Source of the DNA: Gammaproteobacteria bacterium
GTDB taxonomy: Bacteria; Pseudomonadota; Gammaproteobacteria; Pseudomonadales; Pseudohongiellaceae
DNA: 64,000 nucleotides
NCBI GenBank assembly: GCA_029253585.1
Contig: JAQWZF010000036.1
Location: 1-64,000 of the forward strand
Direction of reading: 5' to 3'
The notes below the pieces were generated by a model. That model saw only the letters and a program-made list of their open reading frames with translations, did no database searches and was not told the DNA's origin. Positions 70-5,379 of this stretch are shown piece by piece. Within the stretch, counting starts at the first letter, position 1. Every line of letters begins with the position of its first letter. Position numbers and translations under genes: made by a program.

Positions 70-837
70 ATGTCATTTTTGATAAATTATCCTAGCCTAA
101 TATTTTGCTTTTTCCCCGTGCTTTTCGCACATCTAGTAACATCCTACTTGCGGAAACAACACTGGTCTGAGATTTGGCTAGCAATGGGCATTCCAGTAGG
201 TCTACTAGGAAGCGTTGTAGGAGCCACTTCGATGGCGATTTCTAATGCGGACTTTAATAGCATTTATCCCGCTTCAGCAATTATGTTACTGACAACCCTT
301 TATGGTTCCATCATATCCATGCTTGGATATTTCGCTCGCCAAGAACATGGTCAATCAAGCGTAAGTCCAATTTCAACGGTTCAATTAGTCATATTGCTAG
401 GAGTATTCTGGAGCCTCAATGCATCGGCTATGATGAGTAGTCTTTCATTTAATATGTACCTTTCAACAGAAGTCGCTGTTATTCATCTATCCGTTATAGG
501 CGCATCAGTATTTTTATCTGCAAAACCAAATTATATAGACACCATTTGTGACGCAGCTTTAATGGGCGCAAGCATTAGTGTTGTCGTCGGAGTGATTGCG
601 CTCTACTCAGGTCAAACAGAGAGGGAAGCGGCGATTCTAATTTCAATGAATGGCCTTACTTACGGTCTGTTAATCTATATCTCAGCATACTTCTTCAGCC
701 TCAAGTATCCGACAGGAGAAGAAGTCAGTTTTAGCCGTTTAAATTGGCACTGGATGGAAATTGTAACGTTCTTGATCTTTATGTATTTTTCAACTGAAAC
801 AATTCGTGAGTACCTAAAAAATGGATTAGCAGCTTGA
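70..837 (+). CDS. MotA/PomA-like membrane protein with internal duplication (copy A)
   Basis: This 255-residue polytopic membrane protein has about eight predicted membrane segments, near residues 8-26, 35-55, 64-88, 101-120, 130-151, 160-181, 186-211 and 226-243. Residues 40-86 (GIPVGLLGSVVGA, then SIYPASAIMLLTTLYGSII) follow the third and fourth membrane helices of the flagellar stator proteins MotA/PomA, including the paired threonines (75-76) of the TTLYG motif. A second, weaker copy lies at about residues 163-208 (ALMGASISVVVGVIAL, then LTYGLL). Residues 7-25 and 131-151 resemble the early MotA segment (PSLLIVLGG in typical members). The large cytoplasmic domain between MotA helices 2 and 3 is missing. 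The protein aligns along its length with the one encoded at 1135-1884. The homology is my reading by eye; an ion-channel role is inference. No strong ribosome-binding site is visible. Confidence 0.7.
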   Translation: MSFLINYPSLIFCFFPVLFAHLVTSYLRKQHWSEIWLAMGIPVGLLGSVVGATSMAISNADFNSIYPASAIMLLTTLYGSIISMLGYFARQEHGQSSVSPISTVQLVILLGVFWSLNASAMMSSLSFNMYLSTEVAVIHLSVIGASVFLSAKPNYIDTICDAALMGASISVVVGVIALYSGQTEREAAILISMNGLTYGLLIYISAYFFSLKYPTGEEVSFSRLNWHWMEIVTFLIFMYFSTETIREYLKNGLAA

Positions 838-1134
838 ATAACATTAATTTTGAGGTTCGGTTTTTTACAGGAATCGTTCGTCCAGAATAATATGTAATAC
901 GCTCAGATGGAACCTACTTGGGAAAGTGGGGTGAGCCCCTAGGGTGGGGTGCTGGCTGGGCGGTTACTAGGAAATAAGGGTGGGGCAGCTATCTAGGGAA
1001 TAAGAGCCAGTGGATACGCATTGAACGGTTAAGGTTATGGGTGCTTCCACCTGCCCGAGTTGTGGTGATGAGCATGCTAGATAAAGACAAAGAATTTGCC
1101 GACCGTATATTCGCGCACCTGACTTGCAACACCT
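838..1134. other. Intergenic region between the two paralogous membrane genes
   Basis: The two flanking genes converge on this stretch. It is G-rich around 915-1005, with loosely repeated AGG/GGGTGGGG blocks. I see no convincing gene, terminator or mobile element in it. A short forward reading from about 1041 has no family resemblance and runs into the end of the reverse-strand gene. Confidence 0.4.
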
Positions 1135-1884
1135 TTAGTCCGCGAAAGATAGTAGCAATAATCCGAGAACAAAAATCAAAATTACTAATGCCCAGCCAAC
1201 AAATGACCAGCCTATTGGCGTAACCCCGTTAACGATACTGGGTCTCCTTAGTTTTATAACTATCGAAAGAAATAAGGCGTATAAAAAACTGAGATATGAA
1301 ACAGCTAAAGTTGGTCCTATGCTTCTTGGGTCATCGAGGACAGTAAGTACATAAATTGAAATTACGAAAAAGAGAAAAAGCCCTAAAAAAGGTAAGCTTC
1401 TTACTACAATCTCAAGAACATTGACTTGATTGGTAATCTTACTCAGCCCGGCAATTATACCGATACCACCCAGAACCAAAATCACAGAAGGAAGGTTCAA
1501 GTAAGCCGGAAGGCCCGGTTCAGTCCCAATCGCATAAAGAACAGTCAAGGTAAAGATACCGCATGCAATAGACGGCCTTATCGAGGAGGAAGATACAATT
1601 TTAACCTCGGTGTTATCGATGATAGATGTAACCCCATAGAAAAAAATACTATAAATGGCCACTAGGAGCATGACAAACACTGCGGGGAAAATTGCCTCTG
1701 GATCACTCATATTAGCCAGCATCGCTATTGCCCCAATGATGACACCGATAAGGCCGACCTCAAGTACGATATGCCGGACGAAAGCAGTGCCTTGGTGATA
1801 AGAATCTGTGGCTACGTAGGCAGCGACCAAGGAGCCTAATACAAATATTAAAGAACCGAACTCTATATACGAAGCTACTAGCAT
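1135..1884 (-). CDS. MotA/PomA-like membrane protein with internal duplication (copy B)
   Basis: This 249-residue protein has about eight membrane segments and is the homologue of the one encoded at 70-837. Residues 44-86 (VGLIGVIIGAIAMLANMSDP, then EAIFPAVFVMLLVAIYSIFF) closely match the helix 3-4 region of PomA. Residues 167-210 (LGLFLFF..., LDDPRSIGPTLAVSYLSFLY) match the same region again, keeping the DP-x-x-IGP-x-x-AV signature. Residues 8-24 and 131-147 (LPSVILVLGGIGIIAGL) each recall the PSLLIVLGG segment that opens MotA. The protein therefore reads as two tandem stator cores, each lacking the FliG-contacting cytoplasmic domain. The start is backed by a GGTGAGGGG ribosome-binding site at 1889-1897. 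The function is unknown; candidates are an ion channel or a motor-like energiser. No MotB/PomB partner is visible in the window. Confidence 0.72.
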   Translation of the reverse strand: MLVASYIEFGSLIFVLGSLVAAYVATDSYHQGTAFVRHIVLEVGLIGVIIGAIAMLANMSDPEAIFPAVFVMLLVAIYSIFFYGVTSIIDNTEVKIVSSSSIRPSIACGIFTLTVLYAIGTEPGLPAYLNLPSVILVLGGIGIIAGLSKITNQVNVLEIVVRSLPFLGLFLFFVISIYVLTVLDDPRSIGPTLAVSYLSFLYALFLSIVIKLRRPSIVNGVTPIGWSFVGWALVILIFVLGLLLLSFAD

Positions 1885-2457: not shown

Positions 2458-2751
2458 ATGGTTTTAGTAAACCTTCAATTGAAAATCAAGCAAGACGTCA
2501 GGGACGAATTTATTACGTGGTTCCATTCCGTTTTACCAGATACACGCTCTTATGATGGTTGTTCAGAGGTAAGCGCATGCGACCTCCTTGGAGATGAAAG
2601 CGCAGTGGAGGTCATAAGTCGATGGGAGAGCAAGGCGCACTATGATAAATATTTGGCTTGGAGAGAAGAAGACGGGACGCTCGACACTCTTGCGAACTAT
2701 CTAGCTGCGGATCCAGAGTTTAGGTTTTTAGAGGTAACTCTTCACATCTAA
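2458..2751 (+). CDS. Antibiotic-biosynthesis-monooxygenase (ABM) fold protein
   Basis: This is a 97-residue small protein of the dimeric alpha/beta-barrel ABM superfamily. The supporting pattern is an N-terminal beta strand (VLVNLQLKIK), then an amphipathic helix, the segment SYDGCSEVSACDLLGDES, then VEVISRWESKAHYDKYLAWREE (residues about 51-72) and a closing strand LEVTLHI. The family includes heme-degrading and quinol monooxygenases, but this sequence does not indicate a substrate. A clear ribosome-binding site (AAAGGAG, 2443-2449) sits 8 bases ahead of the ATG, so the start is secure. It stands alone, with a candidate terminator about 225 bases downstream. Confidence 0.75.
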   Translation: MVLVNLQLKIKQDVRDEFITWFHSVLPDTRSYDGCSEVSACDLLGDESAVEVISRWESKAHYDKYLAWREEDGTLDTLANYLAADPEFRFLEVTLHI

Positions 2752-3364: not shown

Positions 3365-4585
3365 TCAGCGAATCAAATTTAACACCAAATTTTTATAGTC
3401 TTGCCCAGTTTTTAACATTAGCATGCTAGCTTCCTTCATTATTTTGGATTTAGTAAGATCGAGTGTCGCTTTAGCATAGTCTGTATCTTCAATTCTGGCT
3501 TTTGAGGCCATTTTATTGCTCTGATTTTCAGTGATTGCATTCATGCTTGATTCGAGGCGATTAATATAGGCTCCTACCTTTGCTAACTTGGAGGTGAAAG
3601 AATTCAAGACGGAGTCTATGGCCTTTAGAGTATCTTGTGATCCGTAAGGCGCGTATGGATACGTCACCATAAGCGGAGCAACATCGCCCCTGTGCACTGT
3701 GGGAAGGTAGGGGGAGTTCTCGGGCAGAGCGTCGGACGCATCGAGAGCAACAAAAAGATCGTTGCTGGTACTATGTTGTAACGCAATACTAACAACCCCA
3801 GAATTGTTCGAGCCCGATACACTAATGCTGTATCCCGTTTGTTGCCCGATGTTTGATATCAATATAGGGTCCCCATCGATTGCTGAAGTAGCGGCGGAAT
3901 TTATCGTATCAATATCTGATTGGGAAAGGCGGTAGCTATATACCTGCGCCTGTTGGTTGGGTACATTATAGAGGGTGAAGGAAAGTATGTCTCCAGATTT
4001 GATATTTGTTGAGTCTGCAATTGTTAATATCTGCGCGTTTCCGTTAACAAAGCCCGTTCCAGACCGGGACAGCGTATTGTCTAGGGCGTTATAAGTAGTC
4101 CCGAGATCTAGATCAATAGTTGCAGTACCGTCGCTGATTTGAATTACTCCGTTACTGCCAGCAGAACCATCGAAAAGGTTCATTTCATTCCAATGAGCCC
4201 GCTTTGATATCGCGATAATCTCATCTCTCAGCTGGATATATTCGCCGACAAGGACAATATTATCACTTGCTGAAAAGGTCTCACTCGCAGACGCAATTGA
4301 TATAGTTTTCATTTTGCGAATCATGCTTAGCACTGATTCAGCGTTAGCTTCGTATGTTTGCAATAAAGAAATGGCGTCGTTAATGTTTTTCATTGCCTGG
4401 CCGGCAGTTGCGACTTCAGAGTTCATTCGAGCAGCCATCGCTGCCCCAGCCGCATCAATCGAGGATGAAGTTATGCGCTTTCCTGTTGCCAGCTTGGTAG
4501 CAGACTCAGCGAACAGTTTTTCGGCCGCGCGAGCGCTCAATATCGCCGTATTTACGTTATTTGAATTGTTGATGCCTATCCCCAT
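3365..4585 (-). CDS. Divergent flagellin
   Basis: This 406-residue flagellin would form the filament subunit exported by the flagellar type III system. The N-terminal D0/D1 domain is visible at about residues 5-145 (LATGKRITSSSIDAAG, where typical flagellins have SSGKRINSAADDAAG, then INDAISLLQTYEANAESVL). The C-terminal domain is at about residues 320-406 (LAKVGAYINRLESSMNAIT, ARIEDTDYAKATLDLTKSKI, ending NLVLNLIR). Residues about 150-310 form a variable region. The diverged AADDAAG box makes it an atypical member. No other flagellar gene (fliD, fliS, hook or export) is nearby, and no sigma-28 promoter could be picked out upstream. It may be an accessory or relic flagellin. Confidence 0.88.
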   Translation of the reverse strand: MGIGINNSNNVNTAILSARAAEKLFAESATKLATGKRITSSSIDAAGAAMAARMNSEVATAGQAMKNINDAISLLQTYEANAESVLSMIRKMKTISIASASETFSASDNIVLVGEYIQLRDEIIAISKRAHWNEMNLFDGSAGSNGVIQISDGTATIDLDLGTTYNALDNTLSRSGTGFVNGNAQILTIADSTNIKSGDILSFTLYNVPNQQAQVYSYRLSQSDIDTINSAATSAIDGDPILISNIGQQTGYSISVSGSNNSGVVSIALQHSTSNDLFVALDASDALPENSPYLPTVHRGDVAPLMVTYPYAPYGSQDTLKAIDSVLNSFTSKLAKVGAYINRLESSMNAITENQSNKMASKARIEDTDYAKATLDLTKSKIMKEASMLMLKTGQDYKNLVLNLIR

Positions 4586-4776: not shown

Positions 4777-5379
4777 TTGCCGTATTGCATCAGTGTGGCT
4801 CACCTGAGCGGTTATGTAGTAGACGGTATCAAATTTGTTGGCTGGTCTACTGTTACTACCCTAGGGAGTTATTATTGGGCCGCCATTACTTACCCAATGC
4901 TAATGGTAATTTTTACCGTCATCGTGCTCTTCAAGCACTACATCGCTAATAGCAATTTTGAGATAAGGAATCGCTGCAAGGTGAACTTGCTGGCGTTTAG
5001 CCCTATGTTCCTGTTTGCTGTTCTAGTCATCTTGTTTCGATTAGCAGGATTCGAGTCGTCTACCGCTATCACCATGCTGGCGGCGACTATCTTCTTCCTC
5101 TTCGTTATGTTGCTGCAGACTAACGGTAATATCTTCTGGGCATCTCTGCGCTTGAAGTTACTTATGTCCGTTCCTACGCATAAGAATATTAATACCCTGG
5201 ACGAGATCTTGGGAAATATAGAGAAGCTGAGAATTACCGAGGCATTAAAGGCTAGTAATGGCATGCAGCGCAATACGGCAAAGCTGCGCAGTGTTTCGCT
5301 CTCTACGCTGAACAAGAAGATAGCAAAGTACGAAAATGTGCCGAAGACTTTCAGCGACTTAGCGTCTTCGACGCGATAA
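4777..5379 (+). CDS. Membrane protein with C-terminal Fis-type helix-turn-helix
   Basis: This is a protein of about 200 residues (TTG start at 4777, or GTG at 4795; neither has a good ribosome-binding site). It has three predicted membrane helices at about residues 36-55, 70-90 and 96-114. A cytoplasmic segment at 141-186 (LDEILGNIEKLRITEALKAS, then RNTAKLRSVSLSTLNKKI) has the spacing of the Fis/NtrC-type DNA-binding helix-turn-helix. That domain normally sits at the end of sigma-54 activators. Here no AAA+ or receiver domain is present, so the protein would be a membrane-tethered DNA binder. The target and signal are unknown. The helix-turn-helix call is fairly firm; a regulatory role for the neighbouring flagellin is speculation. 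Confidence 0.65.
   Translation: MPYCISVAHLSGYVVDGIKFVGWSTVTTLGSYYWAAITYPMLMVIFTVIVLFKHYIANSNFEIRNRCKVNLLAFSPMFLFAVLVILFRLAGFESSTAITMLAATIFFLFVMLLQTNGNIFWASLRLKLLMSVPTHKNINTLDEILGNIEKLRITEALKASNGMQRNTAKLRSVSLSTLNKKIAKYENVPKTFSDLASSTR

Follow-up and report, generated by a model that had tools for sequence, protein, structure and literature searches.

A small, lineage-restricted family of two-core membrane proteins very probably derived from the flagellar stator protein PomA

Two neighboring genes at the start of a 64,000-nucleotide stretch of a Pseudohongiellaceae genome (assembly GCA_029253585.1, contig JAQWZF010000036.1, positions 1 to 64,000; the window) encode homologous membrane proteins, here called A and B, which very probably represent a small, lineage-restricted and unnamed family derived from the flagellar stator protein PomA. 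Comparisons at the sequence level establish homology to PomA, the order of the helices, deletion of the cytoplasmic torque domain and, in B, duplication of the membrane core, the last helix of B being the least certain element. The contig (C29 of the window's own genome, G000) starts at base 1 of the window, so the region upstream of A is out of sight.

Membrane cores of genes A and B

The sequence-only reading had described a pair of convergent, homologous genes of about 250 residues each, and both open reading frames were confirmed at 255 and 249 aa. The features discussed below are as follows.

70..837, + strand: gene A, 255 aa, A-type two-core PomA derivative
88..348, + strand: core 1 of A (TM2-TM3-TM4, residues 7-93, with Ser48, Thr75 and Thr76), placed by PDB match, helix limits from a low-confidence model
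361..705, + strand: putative core 2 of A (degenerate TM1-TM4, residues 98-212), placed only via relatives (A versus one-core profile, E 7e-6)
739..831, + strand: C-terminal helix of A with an NWHxxE motif, common to the A-type rows compared and C-type relatives
1135..1884, - strand: gene B, 249 aa, B-type two-core PomA derivative
1600..1863, - strand: core 1 of B (TM2-TM3-TM4, residues 8-95), placed by profile comparisons and shuffle test
1246..1590, - strand: core 2 of B (TM1-TM2-TM3-TM4, residues 99-213; Ser199 at the position of PomA T185), placed by profile comparisons
1141..1209, - strand: C-terminal helix of B (residues 226-248), predicted to run in-to-out like TM1, from a shifted A-B profile match and loop charges
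2458..2751, + strand: ABM-fold gene, 97 aa, beside B

PomA was the best NCBIfam family for both proteins (B, E 3.2e-15 in two stretches; A, E 1.8e-6) and, as structure 8brd, the best PDB match for both (first block of B, E 2.9e-7; A, E 8.3e-5). Neither protein reaches the curated cut-offs, A and B scoring 13.1 and 14.7 bits against 22.9 for MotA_ExbB and 27.5 and 56.1 bits against 341 for PomA. MotP and MotA were matched more weakly than PomA by proteins P0001, P0002, P0004 and P0009; the A-type protein P0007 matched MotA alone (E 0.04), and a C-type protein (about 351 aa) had no NCBIfam match. PomA ranked first and MotP second in NCBIfam, so that ExbB/TolQ is not the closest family, and NCBIfam, PDB and profile-profile comparisons agree that a four-helix transmembrane core homologous to that of MotA/PomA is present. 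The cytoplasmic torque domain between TM2 and TM3 is absent, as had been claimed, with about 13 residues there in B.

The strong resemblance of B to PomA, first seen by eye, was borne out at the profile level: with B represented by 9 of its 10 rows, its two TM3-TM4 blocks reached E 6.9e-14 and 1e-12 against a MotA/PomA profile of 45 rows, B_G578 being excluded from this profile, from the counts for B and from the core tree. The profile of the N-terminal part of B matches that of its C-terminal part at E 1.4e-15. The halves of the window's B align with a score of 65, reached by none of 500 shuffles (maximum, 60); among the five B rows subjected to this test, the other four gave 0 of 500 in three cases and 1 of 500 in B_G014. 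Against the profile of the one-core relatives described below, B matches with a TM2-4 part (E 2.3e-12) and a TM1-4 part (E 1.9e-9). The refined layout predicted for B is TM2-3-4, then TM1-2-3-4, then one further helix, in the manner of an offset duplication. This last helix is perhaps a TM1: aligning A with B shifted by one core (E 3.5e-5) places it on the next TM1 of A, and its direct comparison with PomA TM1-2 did not rise above shuffles. Scored against PomA, TM1-2 of the window's B reaches 58, which shuffles equal at their maximum, and the TM2 segment of its core 1, taken alone, gives a weak 41 with a 95% shuffle level of 39. Compared directly with the PomA profile, TM1-2 of A and B gave E 0.006-0.012, hardly beyond the best of 14 unrelated membrane proteins used as controls (E 0.013).

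Loop charges bear on the topology. With sides assigned as in PomA and helix limits set by hand, aided by a poor AlphaFold model, the nine B rows carry 54 K+R in 538 cytoplasmic residues versus 7 in 293 periplasmic residues, a pattern present in every row, suggesting that both termini of B lie outside and that every helix has its PomA orientation. The AlphaFold2 models gave no reliable fold (B, pLDDT 44.9, pTM 0.30, 2-row alignment; A, pLDDT 43.3, pTM 0.31, 4-row alignment; eight long helices each) and served for helix limits only.

For A, the claim of two cores per chain stood through its relatives and not through the window's sequence alone. Its halves show no internal repeat, 430 of 500 shuffles reaching the half-versus-half score, and core 2 taken alone stays below the 95% shuffle levels against PomA (TM1-2, 42 versus 44; TM3-4, 39 versus 41), as does the TM2 segment of core 1 (32 versus 35). 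A profile of five A-type rows (A_G816 and A_G793c excluded) nevertheless gives two matches with the one-core profile (E 1.9e-10 and 7e-6), and core 2 of A is hence taken as real but worn. Its match to the PomA profile is no better than E 0.0017 and, with the C-terminal helix added, its match to the corresponding part of B no better than E 0.012. Other A-type proteins, for example that of G000:C3, have one more helix at the front, an N-terminal TM1. The C-type proteins match A (E 1e-11) but not the one-core proteins (E 0.34), and B not clearly (E 0.027), so that they are placed in the family only provisionally.

One-core relatives, distribution and constraint

Relatives of the window's genome encode one-core proteins of 117-125 aa. 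Among 84 genomes of the genus, open frames occur in G019, G793, G820 and G006; the copy of G034 is truncated, that of the window's own genome has an internal stop (L156:4030-4218, - strand, equal to C20:18029-18217), and one further copy lies outside the genus in G765. A profile of six of these seven copies, leaving out the broken one of the window's genome and including the truncated S_G034, gave a single alignment with PomA from TM1 to TM4 that bypasses the cytoplasmic domain (E 7.7e-11), and TM1-2 alone matched at E 1.7e-6. TM1-2 of the G019 protein scored best with the PomA of its own genome (87), followed by that of G034 (82); the remaining 43 of 45 PomA sequences scored 61 or less, and the maximum of 300 shuffles was 58. 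The end-to-end alignment and the closeness to the genome's own PomA point to descent from a PomA of this group, and the one-core proteins are, from their sequences, the likely building block of A and B. In a core tree with 8 of the 45 PomA rows (S_G006, S_G034 and A_G006 left out), core 2 of B was grouped (support 90/72), core 1 of B was not (3 changes), and long branches meet. Chance similarity to PomA was ruled out by the profile matches, shuffles and unrelated membrane controls, and an ordinary MotA/PomA truncated by the assembly by the intact frames, the 10 B loci and the one-core relatives.

How might such proteins have arisen? An ancestral PomA would have lost its cytoplasmic torque domain, leaving four helices in a single-core protein of about 120 aa that survives in relatives; this unit would then have been duplicated, and offset trimming of its ends would have left two cores in each chain. 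Duplication followed by trimming elsewhere would yield the order TM2-3-4, TM1-2-3-4 and an extra helix. The apparent intermediates, namely, PomA, one-core and offset two-core proteins in one genus, suggest stripping, duplication and reuse of a motor protein.

Full-length B is confined to few genomes. It was found in 8 of the 84 genomes of the genus; at E 1e-15, a search of 390 genomes of the order gave six matches, full-length in the window's own genome, G765 and G578 and covering the PomA-like stretch only in the other three. B thus occurs in two other families of the order, with a broken A beside it in one. Among 369 genomes of the class searched at E 1e-6, 100 matched, and the match was uninterrupted over most of the protein only in the window's own genome; the others, not individually inspected, look like ordinary MotA/PomA stretches. 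Intact A-type genes are present in the window's own genome and in G793, two in each; those of G006 and G816 are cut by contig ends, and fragments occur elsewhere. A search of contigs with P0002 gave no match, and one with A-type rows gave three loci. The C-type was found in seven genomes. Nor is the adjacency of A and B unique to the window, since a stretch of about 2.6 kb in G765 carries a broken A along with B, a small gene and a one-core gene. As to mobile origins, a phage gene was rejected within the collections searched, there being no close relative in viral contigs or, for P0004, in phages, as was a plasmid gene: 16 plasmid records match P0004, none over 80% of its length.

Are these genes decaying, functionless relics of PomA duplications? 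We judge this improbable. It would account for the broken or truncated copies, which include the one-core genes of the window's own genome (C20) and G034 and the A genes of G014 and G765, for a second, degenerate A-like stretch seen by eye in G006, and for the degeneracy of core 2 of A and of the ion-site residues. Against this, B is encoded by intact frames both within the genus and in two other families of the order, and dN/dS was 0.11-0.35 in the 7 measurable of 9 pairs, all of them pairs of relatives that include neither A nor B of the window, with dS above 1 in three of the seven and two C-type pairs saturated. The loop charges conserved throughout the B rows likewise speak against decay.

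Ion-path residues, partners and neighborhoods

The sequence-only reading had A keeping hydroxyl residues at ion-path positions that B has lost. Core 1 of A does carry Ser48, Thr75 and Thr76 at the positions of PomA T158, T185 and T186, but the loss in the window's B is incomplete: hydroxyls are gone from these positions except for Ser199, which occupies the T185 position in core 2. The Na+-site threonines corresponding to T158 and T186 are absent from both of its cores. Across the nine B rows, T186 has been replaced in all 18 cores and T158 in 15 of them; in core 2, both are lost in all nine rows and a hydroxyl at T185 is retained in eight. Within the predicted helices of the window's B, ends trimmed, there is no D, E, K, R, H, N or Q. 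In Vibrio PomA, the available text of PMC6677748 describes T158A and T186A as abolishing the Na+-binding signal and T185A as affecting the PomA-PomB complex. Given the effect of the first two substitutions, the window's B seems incapable of PomA-like Na+ conduction; by analogy, it looks to retain the residue tied to B-subunit contact.

Where could a partner come from? In the window's own genome, contig C15 has a single PomA gene with a tandem pair of PomB paralogs behind it (L039:2862-6210), and these PomB genes are the only clear MotB_plug matches. Four ExbD genes are present (C4, C21, C23 and C29:77 kb). Further MotA/ExbB-family (PF01618) members lie at C1, as a 282-aa frame, and at C4, C23 and C29:77-78 kb; the ExbD-like gene of C21 (L146:6764-7180) is an orphan, with no PF01618 (ExbB/TolQ-family) match on its contig. 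As had been noted, no MotB/PomB partner was found beside A and B: in this genome, as far as the contig extends upstream of A, the closest MotB/ExbD gene is about 75 kb off on C29, and no ExbD/TolR gene adjoins the pair.

These observations tell against the suggestion that two fused cores form a pseudo-oligomeric ion channel, the window's B lacking the Na+-site threonines and, in its trimmed helices, all seven of the residue types just listed, and no axle gene having been found. A related idea, a free-standing, ion-driven mini-motor or energizer in which cores of A, B and the one-core protein encircle an axle helix that bears a membrane Asp, is unlikely in our view, even though core 1 of A retains Ser/Thr/Thr at the PomA Na+ site, the G765 locus brings a one-core gene, B and a broken A together, and D+E make up 56 of the 293 residues in the strongly acidic periplasmic loops of B. 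Against it stand the replaced threonines of the B cores, the restriction of clear MotB matches to the two PomB beside PomA with ExbD genes elsewhere, and broken copies of A in G765 and G014 and of the one-core gene in the window's genome. Moreover, a published rotary model depends on 5:2 asymmetry, as set out in the available text of PMC9389320, and two cores per chain alone cannot attain it. An arm-less stator ring of 2+2+1 PomA cores (one A, one B and one one-core protein) that drives or gates an axle is a very long shot; if true, it would be a natural hetero-ring restoring five-fold geometry from duplicated, offset chains. With the Na+-site threonines missing from the window's B, no MotB/ExbD gene nearby and neighbors that differ between loci, the family is probably no free-standing motor.

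Co-occurrence with PomA is uneven. At E 1e-12, PomA is matched in 7 of 8 B genomes and 6 of 6 one-core genomes versus 19 of 84 overall, counts that are uncorrected for kinship and include several incomplete genomes and, for the one-core genes, two broken or truncated copies. No match was obtained in 3 of 6 genomes with A-type genes or fragments, in 4 of 7 C-type genomes and in G014, which has B. PomA is seemingly not required for the family as a whole, since 7 of 18 family-bearing genomes have no PomA match.

The neighbors of the family genes differ between the loci of relatives, and these neighborhoods point to putative accessory islands; the A gene of G816 adjoins an integrase-like gene (by eye). 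Some neighbors recur. A 152-aa single-helix family (motif FVGLExxQSQ), of which the member scanned had no match in Pfam or NCBIfam, occurs in 13 of 16 genomes, each with 1-24 matches, often in arrays (copies lie at L115, L035, L116, L108 and L159). Of 25 family loci, 9 have one of its genes within 15 kb, compared to 0.93 expected under random placement; the C-type genomes G004, G007, G805 and G818 are outside the 16 searched, and their loci are absent from the 25. A gene of a 127-aa soluble protein family immediately precedes the C-type gene in all 7 genomes, for example as pairs at L109:5071-6533, L110:4457-5952 and L117:3652-5150. ABM-like genes precede the one-core genes of G820 and G006 (the latter just under the cut-off), making the ABM-fold gene near B a possible associate of the family. 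An MBL-fold hydrolase gene comes after the one-core gene of G019 and after the B gene of G036, with 75% identity between the two loci, as though a one-core and a two-core protein could fill the same slot.

These recurrent and otherwise varying neighbors are the case for a co-opted accessory-island membrane protein that has no motor link left, serves, for instance, envelope stress or competition, and works with the 152-aa family, the 127-aa family, the ABM-fold protein and the MBL-fold hydrolase. We consider this reading rather unlikely, though well ahead of relics or a motor. None of the three family loci of the window's own genome has a 152-aa gene within 15 kb, a common island does not prove a common function, and a known defense system was rejected, as 10 proteins compared with PADLOC gave no strong match (best E, 0.0086).

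Two further genes of the window lie near the pair. A divergent 406-aa flagellin (3365-4585, - strand; Flagellin_N E 3e-20, Flagellin_C E 6e-12) is about 1.5 kb from B and apart from the flagellins of C15 and C27, and positions 4777-5379 (+ strand) encode a predicted membrane protein with a Fis-type helix-turn-helix at its end (HTH_8 E 7e-5).

Proposed role and comparison with known systems

In flagellar stator proteins, the cytoplasmic domain is needed for work, and single cores form pentamers. The best explanation, which we put forward tentatively, is that A and B are members of a PomA-derived, torque-less, duplicated family acting as a non-torque subunit. Oligomers of A and B, built on the PomA-type core, would form a ring or wedge in the membrane that retains the surface for binding a helix and neither conducts Na+ nor touches a rotor. 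This assembly would bind a PomB/ExbD-type helix (that of PomAB or of the orphan ExbD) or another membrane partner, which would be damped, parked or scaffolded by it. That the function is such modulation or scaffolding of a bound partner is a more doubtful proposition than the subunit reading itself.

In keeping with the sequence-only reading, literature searches on duplicated, fused or permuted MotA/ExbB proteins and on PomA in Pseudohongiella, which left most subscription papers and bioRxiv uncovered, found no description of this family. Among known proteins, PomA (PDB 8brd/8bri; NCBIfam NF006527) is the closest, sharing the TM1-TM4 core, the DPxxIGP and LLxxLYG patterns of TM3-4 and the orientation; A and B differ from it in having no cytoplasmic torque domain, two offset cores per chain, lost ion-site threonines in B and no B-subunit gene found adjacent. 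MotA and MotP belong to the same fold family, mostly with weaker NCBIfam matches than PomA, and have a cytoplasmic domain that A and B lack. ExbB, TolQ, GldL and AglR are non-flagellar users of the fold, and the available text of PMC12505986 describes the cytoplasmic domains of non-flagellar A subunits as condensed to two or three helices. In A and B, this domain is a mere loop, the core is doubled and there is no adjacent ExbD. ZorA of the Zorya defense system has a MotA/ExbB/TolQ-type core in common with the family. Its profile spans 727 positions compared to the 250 aa of A and B, however, and the PADLOC match was weak and confined to P0004 (E 0.0086), with none for P0001 or P0002 and no Zorya genes among four neighbor proteins scanned from other loci. 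A parallel in architecture is a PomA tandem dimer, reportedly engineered by Sato and Homma in 2000, which has two PomA cores per chain, as do A and B, but is man-made and has full cytoplasmic domains. The A/B family offers a natural test of the role of the bare membrane core.
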